Below are positions 22,578 through 32,333 of a stretch of 64,000 bases of DNA, piece by piece (positions within the stretch are counted from its first letter, which is position 1; each line of letters starts with the position of its first letter). A program made the translations under genes and the position numbers. Origin of the DNA: a virus; IMG/VR virus record IMGVR_UViG_3300027675_000004, positions 62,001-126,000 of that record. One strand, 5' to 3'. The notes below the pieces were generated by a model, which saw nothing but the letters and a program-made list of their open reading frames with translations, was not told where the DNA came from and made no database searches.

Positions 22578-22587
22578 ATTAATATAG

Positions 22588-22662
22588 TGGCTAAGAGTGG
22601 ATTTAAACCACTGATCTTTCGCTTATGAAACGAACGCATTGATCAAACTATGCTACTTAGCC
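22588..22662 (-). tRNA. tRNA-Met(CAU)
   Basis: Full cloverleaf: acceptor GGCTAAG/CTTAGCC, anticodon loop TTCATAA, T-arm AGTGG-TTTAAAT-CCACT, discriminator A, no encoded CCA. The perfect G1-C72 pair indicates an elongator, although a lysidine-modified Ile tRNA cannot be excluded by eye. Confidence 0.9.
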
Positions 22663-22673
22663 AATTATTTTTG

Positions 22674-22754
22674 TACCAGCGGAAAGAGTTGAACTTTCAA
22701 GTCTTGCGACAATAGCTTCTAAGGCTATCGCGTTTTCGATTTCGCCACGCTGGC
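22674..22754 (-). tRNA. tRNA-Leu(UAG)
   Basis: Class II tRNA with long variable arm; loop CTTAGAA, stem ATAGC/GCTAT, acceptor GCCAGCG/CGCTGGT (one wobble), discriminator A, no CCA. Confidence 0.92.
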
Positions 22755-22767
22755 ATTATTAATAAAG

Positions 22768-22850
22768 TGCAAGAGAAGAGAGTTGAACTCTTACATCCTT
22801 TCGGACATCGGCTTTTAAGACCGAGGCGTCTGCCATTCCGCCACTCTTGC
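22768..22850 (-). tRNA. tRNA-Leu(UAA)
   Basis: Class II; acceptor GCAAGAG/CTCTTGC, loop CTTAAAA, variable arm TGTCCGAAAGGATGT, T-arm AAGAG-TTCAACT-CTCTT, discriminator A, no CCA. Confidence 0.94.
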
Positions 22851-22855
22851 GTTAA

Positions 22856-22937
22856 TGTCGAAGAAGAGAGTTGAACTCTTATGATTATTAATCGATCGCT
22901 TTTGAAACGATTGCGTCTGCCATTCCGCCACTTCGAC
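22856..22937 (-). tRNA. tRNA-Leu(CAA)
   Basis: Class II; acceptor GTCGAAG/CTTCGAC, loop TTCAAAA, same D-arm (TGGCGGAATGGCAGACGC) and T-arm as the neighbouring Leu(UAA), so the two probably arose by duplication. No CCA. Confidence 0.93.
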
Positions 22938-22996
22938 CATCATTTTTCTGTATAAATTAATACAACTCTTTGTATAAATTAATACAATCTTATTAG

Positions 22997-23070
22997 TGCC
23001 CTTAGTTGGATTCAAACCAACATATCTCACGTTAGAAGCATGATGACTTATTCATTTAGTCTATAAGGGC
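22997..23070 (-). tRNA. tRNA-Arg(UCU)
   Basis: Acceptor GCCCTTA/TAAGGGC, stem TCATG/CGTGA, loop CTTCTAA, T-arm GTTGG-TTTGAAT-CCAAC. Reads AGA, a preferred Arg codon in AT-rich DNA. No CCA. Confidence 0.92.
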
Positions 23071-23250
23071 AAATTGCTCCTGATAACATTTACACAATTC
23101 CATAATACTAATATGTTCTGTTAAATATAAATATGTTAATATAACAAAAACATGTTCATGAATTTTAAAATTTAAAAAAGTATTATATTTAATTTGTATT
23201 ATTGAATGATCATGATTATAAACAATATCTAAAGCGTTATTCTTATCCAT
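23056..23250 (-). CDS. Small hypothetical protein ending inside tRNA-Arg
   Basis: A 64-residue frame whose last 15 nt overlap the 5' end of tRNA-Arg(UCU). The protein has a hydrophobic centre (HVFVILTYLYLTEHISIMEL). There is no convincing ribosome binding site. It may be real, since a similar overlap occurs at 26602-26787, but the call is weak. Confidence 0.35.
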   Translation of the reverse strand: MDKNNALDIVYNHDHSIIQIKYNTFLNFKIHEHVFVILTYLYLTEHISIMELCKCYQEQFALID

Positions 23251-23262
23251 ATATTTTTTTAA

Positions 23263-23335
23263 TGCGCTAAGTAGAATTCGAATCTACTCTTTCAGTTTAG
23301 GAAACTGATGTGCGATCCTATTACACTATAAGCGC
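23263..23335 (-). tRNA. tRNA-Arg(CCU)
   Basis: Acceptor GCGCTTA/TTAGCGC with one U-U mismatch, stem TCAGT/ACTGA, loop TTCCTAA, T-arm GTAGA-TTCGAAT-TCTAC, discriminator A, no CCA. Confidence 0.88.
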
Positions 23336-23336
23336 G

Positions 23337-23531
23337 TTATTTTTTAAAAATGAATAATCCTCTCTTTGTGTCTAGATACGATTTAGGATATATCTTTAAA
23401 AATATTCTTGGTATTCCTGTATTTTTAAAAATCTTATTTTTCATTTCTAACATCAACGCTTCAAATCTACCGGGTGTATAATCTATCTCAGCCATATAAG
23501 GTTGAAACTCTTCTACTTTCGAACGCTTCAT
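23337..23531 (-). CDS. Small hypothetical protein
   Basis: A 64-residue protein; AGAGG sits 4 nt before the ATG. It starts MKRSKVEEFQPYMAEIDYTP and is basic at its end. It overlaps the upstream gene's end by 44 nt in another frame, a tight spacing seen throughout this island. Function unknown. Confidence 0.55.
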   Translation of the reverse strand: MKRSKVEEFQPYMAEIDYTPGRFEALMLEMKNKIFKNTGIPRIFLKIYPKSYLDTKRGLFIFKK

Positions 23532-23679
23532 ATAACCTCTTACATTCTTCTAGAAACTCTAATTGTTTTTTTCGATACACAGGATCTTGCATTAAACGAT
23601 TTACTTCTTCAAAATCACGTAGAAAAATCTCTGCATCTTTACCTCTTAGTGTTGGAGTTGCTTCAATAGGTCTTGCCAT
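23488..23679 (-). CDS. Small conserved-type phage protein (MARPIEATP start)
   Basis: A 63-residue acidic/basic helical protein. The opening MARPIEATPTLRGKDAEIFL resembles a widespread short family in bacteria and phages that begins MARPI.xTP.L.G.DA..F, of unknown function and often found beside other small genes. Its start follows the previous stop by 2 nt (TAATAATG). Confidence 0.65.
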   Translation of the reverse strand: MARPIEATPTLRGKDAEIFLRDFEEVNRLMQDPVYRKKQLEFLEECKRLYEAFESRRVSTLYG

Positions 23680-23681
23680 TA

Positions 23682-23825
23682 TTAAAGAAAACGCAAATTT
23701 AAATTCCAGTTAATTTCATATTCCAGAAAGTCGAAAAACATGTCTTCCATAAGTTTTTCTAAGTTTCTGTTGACTTGTTCTAAGTTTTTATTTGTTTCAA
23801 TAATCTTTTTAGTTATATCATCCAT
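23682..23825 (-). CDS. 47-residue helical protein
   Basis: A short uninterrupted frame starting MDDITKKIIETNKNLEQ and ending NWNLNLRFL, stopping 2 nt before the next start. Repeated N-L-E-Q/K heptads predict one coiled-coil helix. Tight coupling with 23488-23679 supports expression. Function unknown. Confidence 0.55.
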   Translation of the reverse strand: MDDITKKIIETNKNLEQVNRNLEKLMEDMFFDFLEYEINWNLNLRFL

Positions 23826-23834
23826 TATCATTAG

Positions 23835-23908
23835 GGTGCTTACGAAGATTTAAACTTCGAGTTTCGAGCTTCAGATGCTCGCTTGTTATTCATTTACACT
23901 ATAAGCAT
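23835..23908 (-). tRNA. tRNA-Gln(CUG), first copy, weak 1-72 pair
   Basis: Stem CGAGC/GCTCG, loop ATCTGAA, T-arm CGAAG-TTTAAAT-CTTCG. The acceptor is closed by six pairs with A1 opposed to C72, and the D-stem is weak. A second, better formed Gln(CUG) lies at 29761-29831, so this copy may be degenerating or need editing. Confidence 0.75.
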
Positions 23909-24123
23909 GCTCTTGGTGTTTCTGATAAATTATCTAGTTTCTCTATTTCCCATCTACTATGATCACCTAATAATTGACTACGATACAAATGGTCATCGAT
24001 ACTTGAAATACATTCTGTCATACAACCACCACGCCCTGGTTGTGTGGAACATTTTATTAATATAAATATAGGTACTTCTTCTTGCGAACCATCGTCTCTA
24101 ACTAAAATACATTTTATATTCAT
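23899..24123 (-). CDS. Small hypothetical protein
   Basis: About 74 residues from the ATG at 24123, 7-10 nt from GGAAAGG. It starts MNIKCILVRDDGSQEEVPIF and contains GRGGCMTEC. It ends 10 nt inside the tRNA-Gln gene. Part of a run of three closely packed small genes. Function unknown. Confidence 0.55.
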   Translation of the reverse strand: MNIKCILVRDDGSQEEVPIFILIKCSTQPGRGGCMTECISSIDDHLYRSQLLGDHSRWEIEKLDNLSETPRACL

Positions 24124-24128
24124 CACAC

Positions 24129-24311
24129 TCACCTTTCCTTTTTTAATTCCAAAGTAATTTTATATTTATCAGCTATACATTGAATAATAAATTTCAAAAT
24201 TTGTGTCATATAACCAGTATACTCTATATTGTAATCACGTTCTAAAACACAAATATCAAACCATATTTTTTTTAGCATAGTTGTTACATCTTTTTTATTT
24301 TTTTTATTCAT
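24129..24311 (-). CDS. Small hypothetical protein
   Basis: A 60-residue basic, helical protein (MNKKNKKDVTTMLKKIWFDI) located between two other small genes with 2 to 6 nt gaps. No motif recognised. Confidence 0.5.
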   Translation of the reverse strand: MNKKNKKDVTTMLKKIWFDICVLERDYNIEYTGYMTQILKFIIQCIADKYKITLELKKER

Positions 24312-24313
24312 AT

Positions 24314-24595
24314 CTATTTCCTTTTATACATTTTTTCCCATTCATTTCTATACTTTATAATTTCTTCATCAGTAAATTCGGCTATATCTTCACGCTTTTT
24401 TATTGCTTGTAAATATTCATTAAATGTTTCTTTTATTTTAAAATCACAAATATTATATTGTTGAAACATTTTCTTATAAAACATGCCATTTGACAACGCT
24501 TCTAAAGGTTGCTTACGTACTCTACGATTTGCAATTGTTTTCATTCCTTTAGAATGATCTTTTATTATAGGGAATTTTTTATAACTTCTACTCAT
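24314..24595 (-). CDS. Conserved small phage protein (MSRSYKK family)
   Basis: A 93-residue basic protein. The opening MSRSYKKFPIIKDHSKGMK and a following ANRRVRKQ block are typical of a common phage family of unknown function that often lies near tRNA or replication genes. A nucleic-acid-binding role is plausible from charge. Confidence 0.7.
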   Translation of the reverse strand: MSRSYKKFPIIKDHSKGMKTIANRRVRKQPLEALSNGMFYKKMFQQYNICDFKIKETFNEYLQAIKKREDIAEFTDEEIIKYRNEWEKMYKRK

Positions 24596-24604
24596 AGTAT
24601 TTAG

Positions 24605-24679
24605 TGCCCCCAGCGCGATTCAAACGCGCATTATTTTTCGTTCGTAGCGAAATGCCATTTTCAATTAGGCGACAGGGGC
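24605..24679 (-). tRNA. tRNA-Arg(ACG)
   Basis: Acceptor GCCCCTG/TGGGGGC, stem TTTCG/CGAAA, loop CTACGAA, T-arm GCGCG-TTTGAAT-CGCGC (first pair near-perfect), discriminator A. A34 would need TadA deamination to inosine. No CCA. Confidence 0.92.
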
Positions 24680-24685
24680 AAATAG

Positions 24686-24759
24686 TCTCCGCGGTGTGAA
24701 TTGAACACACGTCCTCAGAGTTATCAGCTCTGCGCTCTTAACCTCTCAGCCACACGGAG
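24686..24759 (-). tRNA. tRNA-Ile(GAU)
   Basis: Acceptor CTCCGTG/CGCGGAG, stem CAGAG/CTCTG, loop CTGATAA, T-arm GTGTG-TTCAATT-CACAC, discriminator A, no CCA. Confidence 0.93.
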
Positions 24760-24769
24760 AATGAATTAG

Positions 24770-24891
24770 CGGGTATGATGAGAATTTCACTCATTTAGAG
24801 AGCAACCTCTATTCTGTCAGCATACCTCTACGGAGCTTATCCCGTTTATCTTTGCTCAAGTCTGTGCTTTGCTTTATAACAGACCATACCC
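24770..24891 (-). ncRNA. tRNA-like cloverleaf RNA with enlarged central arm
   Basis: Between two tRNAs lies a 121-nt element whose ends pair as a 7-bp acceptor (GGGTATG/CATACCC). Inside are a 6-bp D-like hairpin (GTCTGT/ACAGAC), a 6-bp central stem (GAGCAA/TTGCTC) holding a further ACGG/CCGT hairpin, and a 5-bp T-arm (ATGAG/CTCAT) with a 7-nt loop TGAAATT. The central arm is about 46 nt larger than an anticodon loop. It could be a Y-RNA-like partner of the Ro60 homologue or a tRNA with an inserted intron. Confidence 0.5.
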
Positions 24892-24901
24892 ATATATTTA
24901 G

Positions 24902-24991
24902 TAGACGGTGTAGGATTCAAACCTACAATGCGCTCTAATCGGGAGCTTCACGGGTATAAGCCGTGGGTTTTGTCATTTAAACTAACCGTCC
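24902..24991 (-). tRNA. Class II-shaped tRNA with UAU (Ile, AUA) anticodon
   Basis: Acceptor GGACGGT/ACCGTCT, stem CACGG/CCGTG, loop CTTATAC, T-arm GTAGG-TTTGAAT-CCTAC. The variable arm is long (hairpin GCTC/GAGC), unlike normal Ile tRNAs, and the D-loop lacks the GG pair. Amino acid identity is therefore uncertain. Confidence 0.75.
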
Positions 24992-24997
24992 AATTAG

Positions 24998-25072
24998 TGT
25001 CTAGGGAGTGACTTGAACACTCATTATTACTGGGTGTAGACCAGTTGCCATTACCAATTAGGCGACCCAGAC
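24998..25072 (-). tRNA. tRNA-Val(UAC) with C33
   Basis: Acceptor GTCTGGG/CCTAGAC, stem ACTGG/CCAGT, loop TCTACAC, T-arm GAGTG-TTCAAGT-CACTC, discriminator A, no CCA. Position 33 is C instead of the near-universal U. Confidence 0.88.
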
Positions 25073-25080
25073 ATATATTG

Positions 25081-25472
25081 TGGAGACGCGCGGAATTGAA
25101 CCGCGGTCTTTAAATAATTAAACATAAATATGCTACACATATAGTCTATTGTTTTATCTTCATTGTGTACATACAAACAGACATGTTCATACACACATAG
25201 TCTTTTAGTTTCATTTTAATATCAAGACAATATTAAAACTAGTGTAATATCGTACCTTACTTATTACTTACACAAAATAAGTAGGTGCGTAACTATATTG
25301 TAGCTACGACTGGTGCATCGGCAAATACATGTGCTACAATAGCATTTGCTTCAGCTAACAAACGGGTATTTTCGTCTGCGTTTAGATTTGCAATGTTTGT
25401 TAACGCAGCCAACATTGCGTCTGCGATGTGCGATCCATGCTTATTTATTTAAATCGAAACCTGATCGTCCCC
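25081..25472 (-). ncRNA. ssrA: tmRNA (transfer-messenger RNA)
   Basis: A 392-nt one-piece tmRNA. The 5' GGGGACG pairs with 3' CGTCTCC, and the T-arm is CGCGG-TTCAATT-CCGCG with discriminator A and no CCA. An H-type pseudoknot (CGCAG/CTGCG interleaved with GCAATGTT/AACATTGC) forms PK1 ahead of the tag frame, which starts GCA GAC GAA AAT. The tag reads ADENTRLL and ends APVVATI before TAG, 28 residues. It would rescue stalled ribosomes during infection. The tag end is not the usual -AA proteolysis signal. Confidence 0.95.
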
Positions 25473-25499
25473 AAATTTTAAAAGAACAAACTATATTGG

Positions 25500-25571
25500 C
25501 AGCTAGGGAAAGAGTCTAACTTTCATATCACGAGTTAACAGCTCGTTCCATTAACATTATGGTACCTAGCT
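25500..25571 (-). tRNA. tRNA-Asn(GUU)
   Basis: Acceptor AGCTAGG/CCTAGCT, stem ACGAG/CTCGT, loop CTGTTAA, discriminator G followed by CCA in the DNA, apparently the only complete tRNA here with an encoded CCA. The T-loop is TTAGACT (A instead of C56). Confidence 0.9.
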
Positions 25572-25592
25572 ATCATTTTTTGTAACATTTAT

Positions 25593-25620
25593 ATTATATC
25601 ACATTCTTATCAAATGTCAA
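25593..25620 (-). promoter_or_regulatory. Sigma-70-like promoter for tRNA-Asn/tmRNA segment
   Basis: On the - strand, TTGACA (25615-25620), a 16-bp spacer, and TATAAT (25593-25598) preceded by TG at the extended -10 position. Transcription would run into tRNA-Asn and tmRNA. Confidence 0.85.
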
Positions 25621-25630
25621 TATTTTTTTG

Positions 25631-25702
25631 TGCCGGATGTCAGTATCGATCTGACCTCTCCGCGTCTTCAGCGCAGCGCTAATCTATCTCAGCTAACCCG
25701 GC
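25631..25702 (-). tRNA. tRNA-Phe(GAA)
   Basis: Acceptor GCCGGGT/ATCCGGC, stem CTGCG/CGCGG, loop CTGAAGA, T-arm GTCAG-ATCGATA-CTGAC (A54), discriminator A, no CCA. Confidence 0.9.
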
Positions 25703-25711
25703 ATTATATCA

Positions 25712-25915
25712 TTATTTTTTAATTGCCTTAAATCCGTCACACGATTCTAACCATACTGGATCAAAATTTACTGGCCAGAAAAACCACCCAGATCGTCTAC
25801 CATAAGCGTCTCCTTCTACATGTGCATTTATGTTATGACATTGTGAATGTGCATCACCTGGTATTGAACCTCGAAATTCACATTTGTAACAATTTGGTTT
25901 CTTCTGCATTTTCAT
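25712..25915 (-). CDS. Small Cys-containing hypothetical protein
   Basis: 67 residues from the ATG at 25915, which follows AAAAGGAGA. The longer frame would run into a tRNA gene. NCYKCEFRG, QCHN and a later SCDG give four cysteines that could bind metal, and the centre is aromatic (GRRSGWFFWPVNFDPVW). Resembles short phage zinc proteins found among tRNA genes. Function unknown. Confidence 0.65.
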   Translation of the reverse strand: MKMQKKPNCYKCEFRGSIPGDAHSQCHNINAHVEGDAYGRRSGWFFWPVNFDPVWLESCDGFKAIKK

Positions 25916-25929
25916 TCTCCTTTTATTAG

Positions 25930-26001
25930 AGCGTCTGATGGGAGTTAAACCCATTCTCACAGTTTGGAAAACTGTAGTGCACTCTCCAACACTTCAGACG
26001 C
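25930..26001 (-). tRNA. tRNA-Gly(UCC)
   Basis: Acceptor GCGTCTG/CAGACGC, stem ACAGT/ACTGT, loop TTTCCAA, T-arm ATGGG-TTTAACT-CCCAT, discriminator U, no CCA. Confidence 0.92.
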
Positions 26002-26022
26002 ATTACACAGCCCTGATAACTT

Positions 26023-26095
26023 AGCCAAAGGTCAGTAACGATCTGACAACCTCTAACTTACCAAGTTAGCGCTCTTCCTCTTGAGCTACAATGGC
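26023..26095 (-). tRNA. tRNA-Thr(GGU) with two acceptor mismatches
   Basis: Stem CTAAC/GTTAG, loop TTGGTAA, T-arm GTCAG-ATCGTTA-CTGAC. The acceptor GCCATTG/CTTTGGC has adjacent U-U mismatches at 5-68 and 6-67, so it is impaired or edited. Discriminator U. Confidence 0.8.
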
Positions 26096-26106
26096 ATTAA
26101 TTTTAA

Positions 26107-26177
26107 AGCCAACACTGGGAATTTAACCCAAATCTAAGCTTTACGAAAGCCTTATTCTAACATTGAACTATGCTGGC
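26107..26177 (-). tRNA. tRNA-Thr(CGU)
   Basis: Acceptor GCCAGCA/TGTTGGC, loop TTCGTAA in a 5-bp stem with wobble pairs, T-arm TTGGG-TTAAATT-CCCAG, discriminator U, no CCA. Confidence 0.85.
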
Positions 26178-26184
26178 AAATATG

Positions 26185-26273
26185 ATAAACTAACTCTTTG
26201 GTGCATCCTTCTAAATTATCTTAGAGAGTTTCCCTGAGCATTTAGTTGGTTTTCAGCTCTGCATTAACTAGTA
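26185..26273 (-). ncRNA. Structured spacer RNA between Thr tRNAs
   Basis: About 90 nt that fill a tRNA-sized slot but do not form a tRNA. The ends pair as GATACTA with TAG-TT-TATC. Inner stems are AACTCT/AGAGTT enclosing CTAA/TTAG. No T-loop is present. Possible small RNA or processing spacer. Confidence 0.3.
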
Positions 26274-26299
26274 TCGTTGCAGATATCATATAAATTTAG

Positions 26300-26371
26300 A
26301 GCCCATCCGCAGAATTCAACTGCGACTCACGGTTTACAGGACCGTTGTGCTAACGTTATCACTAGACGGGC
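26300..26371 (-). tRNA. tRNA-Thr(UGU) with C33
   Basis: Acceptor GCCCGTC/GATGGGC, stem ACGGT/ACCGT, loop CCTGTAA (C32 C33), T-arm CGCAG-TTGAATT-CTGCG, discriminator U, no CCA. Confidence 0.88.
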
Positions 26372-26388
26372 AATATTAAAAAGAACAG

Positions 26389-26460
26389 AGAGATATACGG
26401 GATTTAAACCCGTTCTTCTACATTGGCAATGTAGTGTGCAATCATCAACACCTATATCTC
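26389..26460 (-). tRNA. tRNA-Gly(GCC)
   Basis: Acceptor GAGATAT/ATATCTC, stem CTACA/TGTAG, loop TTGCCAA, T-arm ACGGG-TTTAAAT-CCCGT, discriminator U, no CCA. Confidence 0.92.
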
Positions 26461-26463
26461 ATT

Positions 26464-26537
26464 TTGGTCAGCTCGGTAGTACGCCACCTCTACCTACTTC
26501 AGACTTAATCTGATGCTTGCGTCTCCGCTACGAGCCG
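26464..26537 (-). ncRNA. Degenerate tRNA-like element ending in A-CCA
   Basis: A 7-bp acceptor (CGGCTCG/CGAGCTG) is followed by A and CCA. Three hairpins lie inside: GCG-GAGA-CGC, TCAG/CTGA with loop ATTAAGT, and GTAG/CTAC with a 10-nt loop that lacks TTC. Spacing is shorter than in a tRNA. It is either a tRNA decayed in the D- and T-arms (anticodon would be UAA) or a deliberate tRNA mimic. Confidence 0.5.
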
Positions 26538-26545
26538 AATTTTTG

Positions 26546-26616
26546 TGGACTGGAGGGAACTCGAATCCCTATCCTCTGTTTGCAAAACAGAAATCCTCCC
26601 ATTAGACGACCTGCCC
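26546..26616 (-). tRNA. tRNA-Ala(UGC)
   Basis: Stem TCTGT/ACAGA, loop TTTGCAA, T-arm AGGGA-TTCGAGT-TCCCT. The acceptor GGGCAGG/CCAGTCC keeps the G3-U70 pair that defines alanine identity, with one A-A mismatch at 5-68. Discriminator A, no CCA. Confidence 0.9.
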
Positions 26617-26787
26617 ATCATATCTAAAATATTTTATTTTTTCACATACTATATTAAACATTTTTATCGCTTCTTCATTATCTACAAAACCATTTAAAGC
26701 ATATGTTTGCATATCAGTATGGATATGAATAAACCCTTTTTGCTGACAATAAGCACATCCAGACTCGGTTTTAATTAATTTATTCAT
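26602..26787 (-). CDS. Small hypothetical protein overlapping tRNA-Ala
   Basis: A 61-residue protein with CAYCQQKG near the start and a predicted alpha/beta body. Its last 15 nt are also the 5' end of tRNA-Ala, so RNase P cleavage would remove the stop codon from the mRNA. It overlaps the next upstream gene by 8 nt. Function unknown. Confidence 0.55.
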   Translation of the reverse strand: MNKLIKTESGCAYCQQKGFIHIHTDMQTYALNGFVDNEEAIKMFNIVCEKIKYFRYDGQVV

Positions 26788-27250
26788 TTCTAATTATGTG
26801 ATATATAACTTCTTTATTCAATTTTCGAGCTTCTTTTGCTGTCCAACATGCTCCAGACTTTACATGATCAGAACTATTACAATGGTAACATTTACTAAAC
26901 TTTCTACCTTTATAATCTTTCGGGTATTTATCTACTAAAATTATATGTAGTATATCTGAAGAACTTGCAATATCTAAATTACGTTGTTTAAATCCGTATT
27001 CTGCGTCCCAACATTTTTGTTTAGGTATCTTAAGTTCTAACGGAATACCTAATAGTTTTGCTATTTTTTCTCCCCATATATCAACCCCACCTACAGGTGA
27101 ATGTCCTGAAACAAATCCTGTATCATAATCTCTTTTCTCAATACATTGTACACAATAATCTTTTAAAATAGCTGCAATTAATTCTGCTGCATTTAATCTA
27201 CTAACTTCTGTGAATTTATCTGCACCATGACCAATAATACCAATTTTCAT
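26780..27250 (-). CDS. SLOG-like Rossmann nucleotide-binding protein
   Basis: 156 residues from the ATG at 27250 (GAAAGG, 6-nt spacing); a TTG 6 nt upstream is less likely. MKIGIIGHGADKF opens a Rossmann-like strand-loop. TGFVSGHSPVGGVDIWGEKIA resembles the GG-D nucleotide-binding motif of SLOG/lysine-decarboxylase-like proteins. A later CYHCNSSDHVKSGACW could bind zinc. SLOG proteins sense or cleave nucleotide derivatives. Precise role unknown. Confidence 0.6.
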   Translation of the reverse strand: MKIGIIGHGADKFTEVSRLNAAELIAAILKDYCVQCIEKRDYDTGFVSGHSPVGGVDIWGEKIAKLLGIPLELKIPKQKCWDAEYGFKQRNLDIASSSDILHIILVDKYPKDYKGRKFSKCYHCNSSDHVKSGACWTAKEARKLNKEVIYHIIRNE

Positions 27251-27269
27251 ATTCAACCTTTCAAATTAG

Positions 27270-27352
27270 TGCGTAGGGCAAGATTCAAACTTGCAACGTT
27301 TCGAATGTAACAGTTTTACAGACTGCGCCCTTCATCATTTGGATACCTACGC
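27270..27352 (-). tRNA. tRNA-Tyr(GUA)
   Basis: Class II; acceptor GCGTAGG/CCTACGC, stem GCAGT/ACTGT, loop CTGTAAA, T-arm GCAAG-TTTGAAT-CTTGC, discriminator A, no CCA. Confidence 0.94.
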
Positions 27353-27361
27353 ATATCTTAG

Positions 27362-27435
27362 GGTGAGTAACGAGACTCGAACTCGTGTCACAAGGGTCAC
27401 GACCTTGTATCCTTAACCGCTAGACGATACCCACC
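27362..27435 (-). tRNA. tRNA-His(GUG) with C33
   Basis: Acceptor GTGGGTA/TACTCAC with the His-specific extra G-1 opposite C73. Stem CAAGG/CCTTG, loop TCGTGAC (C33), T-arm ACGAG-TTCGAGT-CTCGT. Confidence 0.9.
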
Positions 27436-27440
27436 AATTT

Positions 27441-27947
27441 CTAAAATAAATACTTTTCCCAAAGATCATGTAACTCACCAATTTTAATCCTAATGATTTC
27501 TCTGAACCCTCTAGGTTTAGTTGGAATACGCATAAGTTTCATTTTTGCTTCTTCAGGTGTTCTATTATCTTTCACTAAATTACATCCATGACAACAAGAT
27601 ACGGTATTTTCCCAAGTTGTTAAACCCCCTCGTGATTCAGGTAATACATGATCAATACCTAATTTTCTAGCATCATGTTTTGTATGACAATATTGACAAG
27701 TATAGTTATCTCTTAGATGCACATTACGTTTAGTATATGAAACATACATCACTTTTTCATATGTAACTTTTACATAATGACGTAATCTAATAACGGCAGG
27801 AATACGCATAGTTGTTGAAGGTGATCTTACTTCCTGCTCATATTCTTCCTCAACATAAACCTTACCGGATACTTTAGCACAAATGGCAGATTGCCAATCA
27901 CAAAAACCAAGAAATTCATACGAACTATTTAAAACTAAAACTCTCAA
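27441..27947 (-). CDS. HNH endonuclease
   Basis: 168 residues from a TTG at 27947, 9 nt after GGAG; the TTG at 27956 abuts the Shine-Dalgarno. The start RVLVLNSSYEFLGF is typical of this HNH family. YTCQYCHTKH, IDHVLPESRGG and NTVSCCHGCNLVKDNRTPEEA give the HNH core and a CxxC-CxxC zinc site (about residues 85-145). It may be a free-standing homing nuclease within the tRNA island or a genome-processing nuclease. Confidence 0.88.
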   Translation of the reverse strand: MRVLVLNSSYEFLGFCDWQSAICAKVSGKVYVEEEYEQEVRSPSTTMRIPAVIRLRHYVKVTYEKVMYVSYTKRNVHLRDNYTCQYCHTKHDARKLGIDHVLPESRGGLTTWENTVSCCHGCNLVKDNRTPEEAKMKLMRIPTKPRGFREIIRIKIGELHDLWEKYLF

Positions 27948-27975
27948 CTTAATCAACTCCTTTCAAATATTTTAG

Positions 27976-28019
27976 TGGAGTAGAGAGTCGCGAACTCTTT
28001 TAATGTACTTAACTACTCC
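27976..28019 (-). ncRNA. Acceptor/T-arm minihelix lacking D and anticodon arms
   Basis: A 44-nt element. The ends GGAGTAG/CTACTCC pair over 7 bp, followed by discriminator-like A. A 4-bp T-arm AGAG-TTCGCGA-CTCT is present, but only 13 nt replace the D- and anticodon arms. It is either a deletion remnant of a tRNA or a minihelix decoy recognisable by acceptor-binding enzymes such as RNase P or the CCA enzyme. Confidence 0.5.
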
Positions 28020-28024
28020 GAAAG

Positions 28025-28100
28025 TCAGCACGGAAGGATTTGAACCTTCAACCTCCTGGTTCCAGGCCAGGCGACCTAATCCAAGTTGGCCCACGCACTG
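28025..28100 (-). tRNA. tRNA-Pro(UGG) with C33
   Basis: Acceptor CAGTGCG/CGTGCTG, stem CCTGG/CCAGG, loop CCTGGAA (C32 C33), T-arm GAAGG-TTCAAAT-CCTTC, discriminator A, no CCA. Confidence 0.88.
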
Positions 28101-28103
28101 TGT

Positions 28104-28373
28104 TTATTTAGAATATAAAGTATCACAACCACATAGATAATGTTTCATTTTAAGGTTTTCATTTTTACAAAAACTTAATGGACAATTATCACAATAACCC
28201 TCATCAACATTTAATCCTTTTTCATAATCTACGTCTGTAATTTGATGCAGACATTTAAAATTAGCTAATGTTAAAACTTTAGTACGTAAATCATTTAAAA
28301 GAGATTCAGTCTTATCTTTATCTGGGTTTCTTTCCAATTTTAAATATTCTTCTTCTGTTAATAAATATTGCAT
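28104..28373 (-). CDS. Small Cys-rich hypothetical protein
   Basis: An 89-residue protein, helical at first (LLTEEEYLKLERNPDKDKTE) and then with about seven cysteines (FKCLHQ, YCDNCPLSFC, YLCGCDTLY), a likely zinc-binding module. It lies between tRNA-Pro and the CCA enzyme gene. No family recognised. Confidence 0.6.
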   Translation of the reverse strand: MQYLLTEEEYLKLERNPDKDKTESLLNDLRTKVLTLANFKCLHQITDVDYEKGLNVDEGYCDNCPLSFCKNENLKMKHYLCGCDTLYSK

Positions 28374-28417
28374 ATGTATGCTCTATTCTCTTCCTAATTT
28401 TTTATTAATTTCTAACA

Positions 28418-29746
28418 TTATTTTATCTCCATCTTGCGTTTCGCATATTCTAATATTACTTCTTCACTGTCTTCAATTTTTAATTCACCATTAATGATAG
28501 CATTCAGAATCAACTCTTTTATTTCACCAACTTTCTTGCAGGCTGGTAAATCAAAGAATTCCATAATAACTAAACCACTTATTGGGCATTTTAATTCTTT
28601 AAAATTTCTTAATTCATTAATACGTCTTTCAAAATCATTTAAAGAATCGAGATGCTTCTGCACAGTAATTGGGTTATGACTAGTGATATCAGCTCTACTA
28701 AGTACTAAAAGTCTATCGCAATATTCACCAGTATCACGTATAAAACGTCTTACTGCACTATCTGACCAGTCTTTTTCATAGGTATTAGCACGCATATGAT
28801 TTCTCACTAGATATGTAATATCTTTACACCAGCGTTTTGGTAAACCTAATCTTTGTAGAATTGGATATGTCATAAGCGCCGAAATATTCTCGTGATGATA
28901 AAAATGGACATTACCATTTTCTACAGACCGGGTTACCATTTTACCCAAGTCGTGAAAGATTGCGGCATATCTTAAGATTATATCTTTTGAAGTATTACGC
29001 AATACCTCTATGGTATGTAATAATGCATTTTTTGAATGGTAAATACTGTCTTGCTCGATCTTACTTAACATCTTTAATTCAGGAATTATATAATCTAGTA
29101 ATCTAAATTGATATAAATCATGTAATGCATCTGCCGCATTATCTGTCATTAAAATCTTATTTAATTCTTCTTGGATCCTTTCTTTTGGAAGAATTAATAA
29201 ACGATGTGCTTGTCTATATAAAGCTTCTTGTACATTTGTGCTATATTCAAAACCAAGTCTTGCCTTAAATCTTACAGCTCGTAACATCCTTAAAGGATCA
29301 TCATTAAACGCTATATTCGCATCGATCGGTGTAACAAGTAACTTATCTTTAAGATGTTGTACTCCATTAAATAAATCTATGATCTCGCCGGTGCTATTTT
29401 GTGCTAGTGCATTAATGGTAAAATCACGTCTTATAAGATCTTCTTGAATAGTTTTTCCCCATTCAACTGTCGGGTTTCGATTATCGCGCTGATAATCTTC
29501 AGCCTTACGATATGTCGTAATATGTACCTCATATTGATCATTTACAATACCAACTGTGCCAAATGCCCATCCAACAGTATGCGGATGATACCCAGCAGCT
29601 TCGAGTATTGCTTTAGATTGATCTGGGGTTGCGCTAGTAGCGAAATCTAAATCGTTAGTTTCGAGATTCAAGAGTTGATCTCTTACTGAACCGCCAACAA
29701 GAAATATCTCAAAATCTTTAAACAACTCAAATATTTTATTTTTCAT
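28418..29746 (-). CDS. cca: CCA-adding tRNA nucleotidyltransferase
   Basis: A 442-residue class II pol-beta nucleotidyltransferase. LVGGSVRDQLL (GGxxR, residues 18-22) and the metal-binding NDLDFAT (D32, D34) head the catalytic domain. The RRDFTINALA and FNDDPLRMLRAVRFKA blocks of the neck/body are intact. A C-terminal HD domain follows (AAIFHDLGK, then FYHHE). It would add or repair the 3' CCA. Nearly all tRNAs in this island lack an encoded CCA, so the enzyme fits directly. It lies within the tRNA array. Confidence 0.95.
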   Translation of the reverse strand: MKNKIFELFKDFEIFLVGGSVRDQLLNLETNDLDFATSATPDQSKAILEAAGYHPHTVGWAFGTVGIVNDQYEVHITTYRKAEDYQRDNRNPTVEWGKTIQEDLIRRDFTINALAQNSTGEIIDLFNGVQHLKDKLLVTPIDANIAFNDDPLRMLRAVRFKARLGFEYSTNVQEALYRQAHRLLILPKERIQEELNKILMTDNAADALHDLYQFRLLDYIIPELKMLSKIEQDSIYHSKNALLHTIEVLRNTSKDIILRYAAIFHDLGKMVTRSVENGNVHFYHHENISALMTYPILQRLGLPKRWCKDITYLVRNHMRANTYEKDWSDSAVRRFIRDTGEYCDRLLVLSRADITSHNPITVQKHLDSLNDFERRINELRNFKELKCPISGLVIMEFFDLPACKKVGEIKELILNAIINGELKIEDSEEVILEYAKRKMEIK

Positions 29747-29760
29747 TATTACCTTTCTAG

Positions 29761-29831
29761 CTGCGAAGCAAGTAATCGAAACTTGATTTCAACGTTCAGA
29801 GCGTTGCGGCCTACCATTAGTCGACTTCGCA
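29761..29831 (-). tRNA. tRNA-Gln(CUG), second copy
   Basis: Acceptor TGCGAAG/CTTCGCA with the Gln-type U1-A72 pair and G73. Stem CAACG/CGTTG, loop CTCTGAA, T-arm CAAGT-TTCGATT-ACTTG. No CCA. Confidence 0.92.
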
Positions 29832-29853
29832 ATTTAATATACTCTATAAGATA

Positions 29854-30060
29854 TTATATAACTTCTAATTTATTTTTTTTACAATAGTTTAAGCATTTTT
29901 TACAGGTTCTACCTCTCATATATGCAGCATTCCATTGTTGTGTAGGATGTTTGCTTTTTCCACAAATACTTTTTTCTTTATTTATATAATAATGCCAAGT
30001 ATACCCCTCACGATAATGCTCCATATCTTGCAACCATCCTAAATAATTTTTGACTTTCAT
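29854..30060 (-). CDS. Small zinc-ribbon-like hypothetical protein
   Basis: A 68-residue basic protein; ICGKSKHP, then RTCKKCLNYC could form a four-cysteine zinc site. It abuts the next gene with no gap. Similar short phage proteins with a CG...CxxC pattern are common and uncharacterised. Confidence 0.6.
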   Translation of the reverse strand: MKVKNYLGWLQDMEHYREGYTWHYYINKEKSICGKSKHPTQQWNAAYMRGRTCKKCLNYCKKNKLEVI

Positions 30061-30243
30061 TTAAAACCACCCTAATTGTTTTGAAATTTCTGGTGTAAAA
30101 CCACCTTTTTCTTTTAAAATTTTACTATAATATTCACCAGTATCTCCTTGGAATAAAGGATCTCCAATTTTAGCAAATCTCCATCTATGACATAATTCGT
30201 ATTGTGTCATATCATCAATTAATTTCTTTTCTTCAACAGTCAT
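30061..30243 (-). CDS. Conserved small phage protein (LFQGxTGEYY family)
   Basis: A 60-residue protein: EEKKLIDDMTQYELCHRWRF, GDPLFQGDTGEYYSKIL, and a terminal ISKQLGW. This layout is a widespread phage family of unknown function. The ATG is preceded by GGAGATG. Confidence 0.75.
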   Translation of the reverse strand: MTVEEKKLIDDMTQYELCHRWRFAKIGDPLFQGDTGEYYSKILKEKGGFTPEISKQLGWF

Positions 30244-30259
30244 ATCATCTCCATTTTAG

Positions 30260-30330
30260 CTACAGCGGAAGGAATCAAACCTTCATTGACGGGTTCAAAG
30301 CCCATTCTCCTATCGTTAGAGGACACTGTA
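30260..30330 (-). tRNA. tRNA-Gln(UUG)
   Basis: Acceptor TACAGTG/CGCTGTA, stem ATGGG/CCCGT, loop CTTTGAA, T-arm GAAGG-TTTGATT-CCTTC, discriminator G, no CCA. Confidence 0.92.
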
Positions 30331-30337
30331 ATTTAAA

Positions 30338-30442
30338 ACCCCGGTGTGCTAAAATTACACTAATATAATGTCGCTTTTGGGTTGGTTGGCGCCTTCACCG
30401 CAAGCTGTTATATATAAGGATTCGCACCTTGTCTTCCGGAGC
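30338..30442 (-). ncRNA. tRNA-sized cloverleaf-like RNA with displaced T-loop
   Basis: A 105-nt spacer whose ends pair over 7 bp (GCTCCGG/CCGGGGT, wobble at two positions). Three inner hairpins can form: AAGG-TGCGAAT-CCTT, whose loop looks like a tRNA T-loop but sits in the D-arm position, GCTT/AAGC, and GTGT/ACAC. Not a tRNA. It resembles the 24770-24891 element in overall plan and could be a tRNA-mimicking small RNA. Confidence 0.4.
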
Positions 30443-30449
30443 AATAATG

Positions 30450-30521
30450 TGGGCGTAGGAGGACTCAAACCTCCAATATGCTGGTTAAGAGCCAACTGCA
30501 TTATCATTTTGCTATACGCCC
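30450..30521 (-). tRNA. tRNA-Lys(CUU)
   Basis: Acceptor GGGCGTA/TACGCCC, stem GTTGG/CCAGC, loop CTCTTAA, T-arm GGAGG-TTTGAGT-CCTCC, discriminator A, no CCA. Confidence 0.92.
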
Positions 30522-30528
30522 GAACTAG

Positions 30529-30607
30529 TGAGCCCGGCGAGAATCGAACTCGCTTGCAAAATGCGCTTGCTTAAAAGGCAAGTGTCTGACCAGTCGACAT
30601 CGGACTC
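30529..30607 (-). tRNA. Class II-shaped tRNA with UUU (Lys) anticodon
   Basis: Acceptor GAGTCCG/CGGGCTC, stem CTTGC/GCAAG, loop CTTTTAA, T-arm GCGAG-TTCGATT-CTCGC. The variable region is 12 nt (GCA-TTT-TGC hairpin) and the D-stem is 3 bp, features of Leu/Ser/Tyr tRNAs. Discriminator A. Confidence 0.82.
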
Positions 30608-30611
30608 GTTG

Positions 30612-30685
30612 AGGCACTAAAGAGATTTGAACTCTTGATAAATTGTTTTGCAGACAATCGCTTTCGACCACTCAGCCATAGTGCC
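30612..30685 (-). tRNA. tRNA-Cys(GCA)
   Basis: Acceptor GGCACTA/TAGTGCC with U73, the Cys identity base. Stem ATTGT/ACAAT, loop CTGCAAA, T-arm AAGAG-TTCAAAT-CTCTT. No CCA. Confidence 0.94.
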
Positions 30686-30695
30686 AATTATATAT

Positions 30696-30723
30696 ATTAT
30701 AGCATAATTAATTAATTTGTCAG
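30696..30723 (-). promoter_or_regulatory. Promoter upstream of tRNA-Cys
   Basis: CTGACA (30718-30723), 16-bp spacer, TGC-TATAAT (-10 at 30696-30701). It would drive Cys, Lys, Lys, Gln and the following genes. Confidence 0.8.
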
Positions 30724-30742
30724 TAACTTTTTTCACCAATTG

Positions 30743-30813
30743 CAGGAGCTACTGGTTCCGCCCCAGTAAATTCGGTTTTGGAGACCGACAGTTTGCTGTT
30801 AGCTTAAGCTCCT
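30743..30813 (-). tRNA. tRNA-Trp(CCA) with non-canonical T-loop
   Basis: Acceptor AGGAGCT/AGCTCCT, G73 (Trp identity), stem TCGGT/ACCGA, loop CTCCAAA. The T-arm ACTGG-GGCGGAA-CCAGT lacks the TTC of a normal T-loop, so m5U54/pseudouridine-55 modification is not expected. Confidence 0.82.
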
Positions 30814-30819
30814 ATCTTG

Positions 30820-30898
30820 CGGAAGAGGTAGGTTCTGCCCCTACATGCCGTAATTAACGGTTACCTGTTTTCAAGACAAGTCGGATCTCTATACTTCC
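30820..30898 (-). tRNA. tRNA-Ser(UGA), D-arm reduced
   Basis: Anticodon stem CTTGT/ACAGG, loop CTTGAAA, long variable arm (CCGT/ACGG), T-arm GTAGG-GGCAGAA-CCTAC, G73. Only about 11 nt separate the acceptor from the anticodon arm, so there is no normal D-arm. The 5' end overlaps the last codons and stop of the GIY-YIG gene. Confidence 0.65.
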
Positions 30899-31572
30899 GT
30901 CAACTCTTCCAATTTCCCAAAACACCCAGCATTAAATCTTCTACCAATTATCCAACCTTGAGCTAAATAATCTTGTATCAGGTTTTTTTTAATAAGAACA
31001 GATTTCTTAAATCTTAGATTCGATATCCATTTTTTGTTATATTGAGGATTATTTCTGCCTTTATTTTGAATTGCATTTATTTTACCGATAAACCTTTTAA
31101 ATTTATTAGTATGCTTTTTATTCAAAAATCCTTTACACAAGCCTTTAGCTCTAGCTTGTTTCTGTCCTATTGATAGTTTTGTACAAAATTCCTTTCTCCA
31201 TTCTCTATTGCGCAACAATTTTTTGAATTTTATATAAATTCTTTTATATCGTTCTTTTCTATTTGGAGAAAAATAATTATTATATATCCACGATCCTGCC
31301 CCGCCACCATTTCTATTATATAATCGATGCTTATTCTTTTTTATGTACCTAGCGTCCAATAATTTTTTTTCAGCACATAATAATTCATCTTTCGAATTAA
31401 AACAATTCAAAACTATCTTTTTGAAATTATTTTTACCGTATTTTTTAATATCTTGACATAAATATAATCCCGATCCTATGTAATTATCATTAATATTCTC
31501 TGTTATATGGGCACCAATATAAAATTTCTTATTTATTTTATTGATTGTTTTATATAAAACATATTTTTTCAT
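30889..31572 (-). CDS. GIY-YIG homing endonuclease with NUMOD repeats
   Basis: A 227-residue basic protein. KYVLYKTINKINKKFYIGAH holds the GIY-YIG-type core, followed by YIGSG and FKKIVLNCF. The C-terminal half has NUMOD3-like DNA-binding repeats (GFLNKKHTNKFKRFIGK, NKGRNNPQYNKKW). It lies between two Ser tRNA genes and its 3' end runs 10 nt into tRNA-Ser(UGA), whose D-arm is deformed. That suggests homing into a tRNA gene. Translation may be limited by tRNA processing. Confidence 0.85.
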   Translation of the reverse strand: MKKYVLYKTINKINKKFYIGAHITENINDNYIGSGLYLCQDIKKYGKNNFKKIVLNCFNSKDELLCAEKKLLDARYIKKNKHRLYNRNGGGAGSWIYNNYFSPNRKERYKRIYIKFKKLLRNREWRKEFCTKLSIGQKQARAKGLCKGFLNKKHTNKFKRFIGKINAIQNKGRNNPQYNKKWISNLRFKKSVLIKKNLIQDYLAQGWIIGRRFNAGCFGKLEELTEV

Positions 31573-31590
31573 TTTTTCTTAATTTTTTTG

Positions 31591-31676
31591 CGGAGGGTGC
31601 AGGTGACGCTCCTGCGTTTCTTTCGATTTCCAGTTTAGCAAACTGGCGTGCCAATCTAACCATGCACATACCCTCC
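31591..31676 (-). tRNA. tRNA-Ser(GCU) with non-canonical T-loop
   Basis: Class II; acceptor GGAGGGT/ACCCTCC, G73, stem CCAGT/ACTGG, loop TTGCTAA, T-arm GCAGG-AGCGTCA-CCTGC (no TTC). No CCA. Confidence 0.88.
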
Positions 31677-31685
31677 AAAAAGTAT

Positions 31686-31944
31686 TTAGTTAATGATAAG
31701 CCAGGTTTTGTTTATCTAGCCATCCGTCTATGCGATCGTTACCCGAACCTATCGACCGAGCAGGTCAGGTTCTGTTTGATCTTGCTCTGCGTAGAGATTG
31801 GTCGTCTCATTTTTCTCGTCTCTGTCCTCTTATCGTCAATTTTATGATTGCTCAAAGTTGTTAGCTTTGATACGCTGCTATGTAGAGCCTGGACTTTCCT
31901 CAGATAAGTCATTAAGGCTTACCCGTAGCTAGTTCATTAACTAA
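31686..31944 (-). ncRNA. rnpB: RNase P RNA (compact)
   Basis: About 259 nt. The ends form a perfect 11-bp P1 (TTAGTTAATGA/TCATTAACTAA). The CR-I hallmark GAGGAAAGTCCAGGCTC lies near the 5' end and the CR-V hallmark ACAAAACCTGGCTTAT at the 3' end, with an AGAGGACAGAGACG block between. It is shorter than cellular RNase P RNAs (often 350-400 nt), so peripheral helices are missing. It would act as the ribozyme that trims 5' leaders of the surrounding tRNAs, presumably with host RnpA. No protein subunit gene is seen. Confidence 0.9.
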
Positions 31945-31952
31945 ATTCTTAG

Positions 31953-32028
31953 CGCCCCGTGGGGAATTTGAATCCCCGATCTTTGGCGTGACAAGCCAAC
32001 GCATTGAGCCAAACTATGCTAACGAGGC
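31953..32028 (-). tRNA. tRNA-Asp(GUC)
   Basis: Acceptor GCCTCGT/ACGGGGC, G73 (Asp identity), stem TTGGC/GCCAA, loop TTGTCAC, T-arm GGGGA-TTCAAAT-TCCCC. No CCA. Confidence 0.93.
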
Positions 32029-32036
32029 AATTCTAG

Positions 32037-32109
32037 CACCGCTGGCGAGAGATCGAACTCGCTTTGCGAGAGTGAAATTCTCGCGTCCTAACCCGTAGAC
32101 CACAGCGGC
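32037..32109 (-). tRNA. tRNA-Glu(UUC)
   Basis: Acceptor GCCGCTG/CAGCGGT, stem CGAGA/TCTCG, loop ATTTCAC, T-arm GCGAG/CTCGC with an apparent 8-nt loop TTCGATCT. Discriminator G, no CCA. Confidence 0.88.
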
Positions 32110-32115
32110 ATAAAT

Positions 32116-32143
32116 AAAAAAACCGACTCTTTTTAGTAGTCGG
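32116..32143 (-). terminator. Rho-independent terminator
   Basis: On the - strand CCGACT...AGTCGG is a 6-bp, GC-rich stem followed by seven T. It ends the promoter-proximal transcript that carries tRNA-Met and the structured RNA just upstream. Confidence 0.85.
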
Positions 32144-32300
32144 TAGCTTTAGGTCCTAGATCTGTCAGCTACGTTCTACTGTGAATCGGTTATATTATCT
32201 GTAGAAACAAACGCTGGCCTAAAGCTACCCGAACATAAAATGGCTGCGGGCCAAAGCTTACGGCTTTGGTTTTTATACATCTTATGTTCGAATCTAACTT
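32142..32300 (-). ncRNA. Two-hairpin structured RNA before the terminator
   Basis: Two long stems: CGAACATAA/TTATGTTCG (32230-32238 with 32282-32290) enclosing CCAAAGC/GCTTTGG, then a 12-bp stem GGTAGCTTTAGG/CCTAAAGCTACC (32142-32153 with 32218-32229) enclosing an irregular rod with TTCTAC/GTAGAA. A terminator follows at once. This looks like a discrete small RNA of about 170-190 nt. The family is unknown; a Y-RNA-like or 6S-like role is possible but unproven. Confidence 0.55.
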
Positions 32301-32333
32301 TTATAGTCATGTTTGTTTATACTATTAAATTTG

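Follow-up and report, generated by a model that had tools for sequence, protein, structure and literature searches.

The subject here is a stretch of viral DNA ('the window'), 64,000 bases in length and representing positions 62001-126000 of the 175,053-base virus record IMGVR_UViG_3300027675_000004, within which a predicted CCA-adding enzyme, i.e., a class II transfer RNA (tRNA) nucleotidyltransferase, is encoded inside of an array of tRNA genes which, with one exception, lack an encoded CCA. Across phages, no positive coupling was found between carriage of this enzyme and CCA-less tRNA genes. The enzyme thus is probably best viewed as one for finishing and repairing tRNA 3' ends generally, and one that also would complete the phage's partly templated tails, rather than as an enzyme that is carried for the reason that those genes are CCA-less. 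The record itself is tailed-phage-like, encoding a major head protein, a DNA polymerase III beta subunit, and a PIF1-like helicase. The two features on which the argument turns are as follows.

28418-29746, minus strand: class II tRNA nucleotidyltransferase, predicted to be CCA-adding based on domains, motifs, and fold; one open frame of 442 amino acids.
22587-32405, minus strand: tRNA array, consisting of 33 tRNAs with short spacers and small open reading frames (ORFs) between them, along with one transfer-messenger RNA (tmRNA) and one RNase P RNA, as identified using ARAGORN and Rfam and, for three tRNAs, by eye.

By domain, motif, and predicted fold, the first of these would be an enzyme that adds the complete CCA. 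A sequence-only reading of this DNA had already placed a CCA enzyme inside of the array, and the coordinates, strand, domains, motifs, and predicted fold all agree with that placement. A head domain (residues 14-137) is followed by an RNA-binding domain (165-225) and an HD domain (236-355), with matches to the Pfam families PolyA_pol (PF01743, 7e-32), PolyA_pol_RNAbd (PF12627, 3e-15), and HD (PF01966, 1.5e-7), and the tRNA nucleotidyltransferase family phrog_2244 matches at 1e-72. The AlphaFold2 model has a mean pLDDT of 92.6, and the best match in the PDB, by sequence and also by fold, is the CCA-adding enzyme of B. stearothermophilus (1miv, E 1.4e-19). Over 26 phage homologues, little or no variation is seen in G18-G19-x-V-R22-D23, D32/D34, R106-R107-D108, and D150-x-x-R153. 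Strictly invariant are G18, G19, R22, D32, and D34 of motif A (GGxVRD, DxD), R106, R107, and D108 of motif B (RRD), D150 and R153 of motif D (EDxxR, responsible for the selection of C and A), and H265-D266 of the HD domain.

CC-adding enzymes are without the flexible loop that separates motif A from motif B, and A-adding enzymes are without the first E of the element ERxxxExxxhh (PMC10673834). In the window's enzyme, that loop is of full length as aligned with 1MIV, with a dip in pLDDT at residues 81-90, and E189, R190, and E194 are invariant, followed by I198-L199. That the protein instead possesses some other activity, i.e., that of a poly(A) polymerase or of an enzyme adding only CC or only A, or indeed that it is inactive, is therefore very improbable: the CCA-type motifs and loop are present, the catalytic residues are kept, CCA-adding enzymes come first in both structure and sequence searches, and the poly(A) polymerase model PcnB scores just 154.9 bits versus a cut-off of 305.65. 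Speaking for such a departure are that the best NCBIfam model, the actinobacterial CCA equivalog TIGR02692, is matched at 357.3 bits, far under its cut-off of 438.8 (for which reason the enzyme is not filed as a member), and that the first acidic residue of motif D is Asp rather than Glu, as it is also in several phage relatives. The sequence carries no known marker for inactivity, and the enzyme presumably is active.

The enzyme shares its domains, catalytic motifs, CCA-type loop, and ERxxxExxxhh element with bacterial class II CCA-adding enzymes (B. stearothermophilus 1MIV; M. tuberculosis Rv3907c), and the likeness to M. tuberculosis extends to an HD domain and a mostly CCA-less tRNA set (PMC10673834). 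It differs from those bacterial enzymes in being phage-encoded, in lying inside of a tRNA array, in having DDxxR for EDxxR, and in scoring below the TIGR02692 cut-off. Phage tRNA nucleotidyltransferases have been described previously (PMC5852040, PMC7824862, PMC7162821), and the present gene adds another member to what is already known. That is, it shares both family and a tRNA-rich phage setting with phrog_2244, with ORF446 of phage XacN1, with QGF21813 of Salmonella phage ST-3, and with the enzymes of huge or jumbo phages. Relatives are found in 460 phage records, every match being of less than 60% identity.

Turning to the tRNAs, the count of 33 that was given by the sequence-only reading is reproduced: 29 are reported by ARAGORN, a tRNA-Phe is supplied by Rfam, and three more, with 7-bp acceptor stems, are recognizable by eye. 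Only tRNA-Asn has a CCA encoded after the discriminator position, N73, just as had been claimed, and agreement is seen with the ends that are mapped solely with the Rfam tRNA model, which stops at N73 and is blind to positions 74-76. The tRNAs that require individual mention are these.

25497-25571, minus strand: tRNA-Asn(GTT), by ARAGORN; the sole array tRNA with encoded CCA.
25631-25702, minus strand: tRNA-Phe(GAA), by Rfam; tail CAA.
26300-26371, minus strand: tRNA-Thr(TGT), by eye, missed by both programs; acceptor GCCCGTC/GATGGGC; tail CTA.
30743-30813, minus strand: tRNA-Trp(CCA), by eye, missed by both programs; acceptor AGGAGCT/AGCTCCT; tail CAA.
30820-30910, minus strand: tRNA-Ser(TGA), by eye; acceptor GGAAGAG/CTCTTCC; tail CAA.

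To describe these genes as lacking CCA, while correct as to the full triplet, nevertheless is too coarse, as C74 and usually A76 remain. The three bases following N73 are CTA in 16/33, CAA in 8/33, and TTA in 3/33, with the rest seen once or twice each; by position, C74 is found in 29/33, C75 in 1/33, and A76 in 28/33. Using the 28 tRNAs with Rfam-defined ends, C74 is present in 24/28 (P ~1e-16 versus local composition, by which ~15% C is expected) and A76 in 23/28 (P ~7e-7, with ~36% A expected). The tails thus are non-random, with C75 lost but C74 and usually A76 kept. ARAGORN bias is not the source of the C74, since upon in silico rewriting of positions 74-76 the program still reports 29/29 tRNAs, with ends shifted by at most one base, and since Rfam-defined and T-loop-anchored ends agree with the kept C74. 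A stop codon found directly after C74 (CTAA, CTAG, CTGA) is seen in only 13/28 window tails and is not general.

Additional tRNA-like elements are found in and beside the array, all on the minus strand. At roughly 26460-26530, between tRNA-Ala and tRNA-Gly, is a degenerate tRNA-like hairpin (CGGCTCG/CGAGCTG), called by neither program and followed by ACCA. At roughly 27974-28020 is a mini-tRNA-like element of about 47 nucleotides, consisting of an acceptor and T-arm (GGAGTAG...CTACTCC-A-CTA) and ending in a CTA tail as seen with the array tRNAs. At 32441-32500 is a half made up of an anticodon arm and a T-arm; ACCA comes after it, and its acceptor strand (CTTCCCC) pairs with a GGGGAAG found downstream rather than upstream. 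It gives a weak permuted-tmRNA match (E 0.57) and is possibly a tRNA remnant or a terminator. A homing-endonuclease-like ORF (30889-31572), in addition, overlaps with its 3' end the 5' part of the tRNA-Ser(TGA) gene.

The sequence-only reading held that the enzyme and the CCA-less tRNAs explain each other. That is, the enzyme would be kept since the phage's tRNAs otherwise could not be finished, and the genes would have lost their CCA since the enzyme is present. Enzyme-positive phages for consideration of this idea were drawn from viral contigs searched by alignment and from whole records searched by profile, with one named complete phage added; the enzyme-negative set consisted of phage T4 along with contigs lacking a match to PF01743 that were 74 kb or longer and carried 9 or more tRNAs. 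(PVPSE1, Hena1, and SRB7757 stand outside of the comparison, as the stretches examined were without tRNA genes.) In 11/24 enzyme-positive versus 4/13 enzyme-negative phages, 80% or more of the tRNAs encode CCA, and in 6/24 versus 8/13, respectively, 25% or fewer do so. The direction thereby is opposite to that of the proposed coupling (Fisher P 0.04 for mostly CCA-less; Mann-Whitney P 0.10), but as the two samples were assembled using different patterns and are neither random nor phylogenetically independent, the only claim made is an absence of positive coupling.

CCA-rich enzyme-positive phages include L019 (22/22), L069 (11/11), L074 (8/8), G005 (14/15), G036 (16/16), G054 (29/29), G056 (28/29), and ST-3 (23/27, as compared with 1/33 in the window), and CCA-poor enzyme-negative contigs are represented by counts of 6/36, 2/10, 3/16, 6/26, 1/10, 2/15, 0/9, and 2/22. 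The clearest counter-example to coupling is L019, the second-closest distinct relative (55% identity), as its enzyme also lies inside of the array; the named one is ST-3. Among 20 long enzyme-positive contigs, moreover, 10 have 9-46 tRNAs, 4 have only 1-3, and 4 have none, and enzyme carriage goes with tRNA-rich large phages in general. A dedicated pairing of enzyme with CCA-less genes is, for these reasons, unlikely, and all the more so as host CCA enzymes can suffice, as they must for the CCA-less tRNAs of T4. In its favor are the window itself, with CCA in just one of 33 tRNAs beside the enzyme gene, phage L011 (61% identity), which likewise carries the enzyme inside of its own array and encodes CCA in just 2/18 tRNAs, and the 735-kb enzyme-positive phage L015, with 0/11.

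The proposal that was made from sequence therefore survives in part: a predicted enzyme does lie amid CCA-less tRNAs, tRNAs which need a CCA enzyme from somewhere, but mutual explanation does not hold up. Host cells are known always to possess a CCA enzyme or an equivalent pair, and T4 is not known to carry one of its own. Phage tRNA genes would be free to lose their CCA, as there is always some CCA enzyme at hand, that of the host included, with T4 as an example. The T4 tRNA cluster, finished by the host, similarly is partly without encoded CCA (4/8 with CCA), though its CCA-less tails are TAT, TAA, CTG, and CGC whereas those of the window are uniformly C-T/A-A.

With general finishing and repair, the enzyme would complete and indeed re-complete tRNA 3' ends over the course of infection. 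Its substrates would be the phage's tRNAs and tmRNA, the genes of which supply N73-C74 but usually the wrong base at 75, along with host tRNAs that have been trimmed or cut. Following 3' trimming or a cut at N73/C74, the missing C75-A76 or instead the whole CCA would be added. What the phage would gain is capacity, host-independence, and repair of tRNAs cut or trimmed at N73, C74, or C75. Both the identity of the substrate tRNAs and the retention of the gene for repair and host-independence are inferences. Repair of trimmed tRNAs had been mentioned as well by the sequence-only reading, and it is the better general explanation, though one already published, with CCA enzymes counted among jumbo-phage RNA-repair enzymes as restoring CCA 'or parts thereof' (PMC7824862). 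An RtcB RNA ligase gene found elsewhere in the same genome supplies a repair context for the enzyme.

Certain points weigh against this view. Some enzyme-negative contigs may be incomplete, with the gene possibly found elsewhere, and the two phage samples, differently gathered, are not independent of phylogeny. The window phage and L011 both pair the enzyme with CCA-poor arrays, so that a local dependence is possible. If the host enzyme acted poorly on these tRNAs, then the phage enzyme would be needed for their maturation.

Repair can be considered also more narrowly, as counter-defence, with the enzyme rebuilding CCA tails that have been cut by the host, whether by Cas12a3-type nucleases or by other 3'-end effectors, and thereby keeping host as well as phage tRNAs usable. 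Cas12a3 removes CCA tails, and its describers note that viruses would need an unknown means of resistance (PMC12851939), which makes such a role plausible but unproven. Enzyme presence is independent of CCA in the phage's own genes, matching what repair predicts, RtcB is a second RNA-repair enzyme in the same genome, and CCA enzymes have been placed among phage RNA-repair enzymes (PMC7824862). No defence of such activity is known, however, in the host, and no feature of the sequence is specific to the role. As the enzyme is found in hundreds of phage records while Cas12a3 is newly described, Cas12a3 is unlikely to be the sole driver. Counter-defence as the explanation for this gene consequently seems improbable, and general finishing and repair is retained.

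The kept C74 is not peculiar to the window. Using Rfam ends, C74 is present in the CCA-less tRNA genes of phages L208 (17/17), L099 (18/18), L102 (13/13), and L244 (12/12), and it is kept as well in G048 (39/39), G046 (17/17), and G044 (28/30); arrays in which practically all of the otherwise CCA-less tRNA genes keep C74 are those of L208, L099, L244, L198, G044, G046, and G048. It is mostly absent from L218 (1/8), L212 (1/6), and G045 (0/7), which have T74. Among a limited set of chromosomal tRNAs, T predominates at 74 in several clusters of the Bacillus type, and C74 is seen in individual CCA-less tRNAs from Streptomyces, Microbacterium, and Herbiconiux, the numbers in both cases being small. 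Given this split, as seen with phages and chromosomes alike, the C74 'half-template' is probably a convention of certain host lineages rather than something made by the phage enzyme. With M. tuberculosis, most tRNAs need 'a final or partial sequence' of CCA, and the tmRNA gene ends in CCG (PMC10673834).

Two further RNA genes of the array distinguish it from those of the other phage tRNA nucleotidyltransferases.

31682-31944, minus strand: RNase P RNA, bacterial class A, compact at 263 nucleotides; RF00010 at 112.2 bits, above the gathering threshold of 100.
25080-25472, minus strand: tmRNA, by ARAGORN and by Rfam (RF00023, 137.5 bits); tag ADENTRLLAEANAIVAHVFADAPVVATI; 3' end ACAA, without encoded CCA.

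The RNase P RNA carries a CGGGUA motif resembling L15, the element by which the 3' end of a tRNA is read, and its P4 pairing partners are retained, A-U substituting for G-C in compensatory fashion. The record has no PF00825 match over its 175 kb, i.e., no gene for the partner protein RnpA, so the RNA would use a host protein or none. No RNase P RNA was found in L011 nor in two other enzyme-positive phages. The short core motif matches 78 viral contigs, many by chance inside of other sequence, and in about 20 of them it lies among at least 8 tRNA genes. Five of five tested candidates score 261-300 bits in Rfam. RNase P RNA genes within other viral tRNA arrays are these.

L150, 8153-8517
L117, 800-1149
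L102, 2968-3382
L099, 9376-9703
L174, 536-887

Some of the motif-matching contigs may be misfiled bacterial DNA, which is not likely for the window. No paper on phage-carried RNase P RNA genes was found in the literature searched. As for the tmRNA, L011 has one too (15517-15916), with long tag ADENQRLLASAEDIVAPIFAGDPVFA, and both tags are long and without the usual terminal LAA degradation signal; a gene for the partner SmpB was not found in the window's record. Elsewhere, on phage contig L218, a pistol ribozyme (4010-4073, 56.5 bits) precedes a tRNA gene by about 160 bases.

The GGU of RNase P L15 pairs with N73-C74-C75, and RNase P works better with CCA in place (PMC11143913). Such pairing does not account for T75, as other C74-keeping phages equally often have A or G at 75, and so it explains C74 at most. 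Retention of C74, a phage-encoded RNase P RNA containing CGGGUA, and a CCA enzyme, all in one array, nonetheless would fit together. The route for phage tRNAs would be trimming or a cut at N73/C74, after which the enzyme would add the rest of the CCA. Taken further, and quite tentatively, the array might be a maturation kit in which RNase P RNA serves the 5' end of the tRNA and the CCA enzyme its 3' end, with tmRNA as another component and RtcB encoded elsewhere; C74 would be a half-template serving L15 pairing, a stop for 3' exonuclease, or both, with C75-A76 left to the enzyme, which also would rebuild defence-cut CCA tails.

Less ordinary than the CCA enzyme are an RNase P RNA carried by a phage, the retention of C74, and a tmRNA whose tag is non-LAA. 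In the literature searched, no description was found of either of two regularities, namely that C74 is retained where phage tRNA genes otherwise lack CCA and that several viral tRNA arrays contain an RNase P RNA gene. For the enzyme itself, the meaning is that a phage CCA enzyme is no evidence of a need imposed by CCA-less tRNA genes, with the converse failing too. The absence of coupling instead indicates repair or host-independence as the selected function, a function which, since the description of a CCA-tail-cutting defence (Cas12a3), is directly testable.
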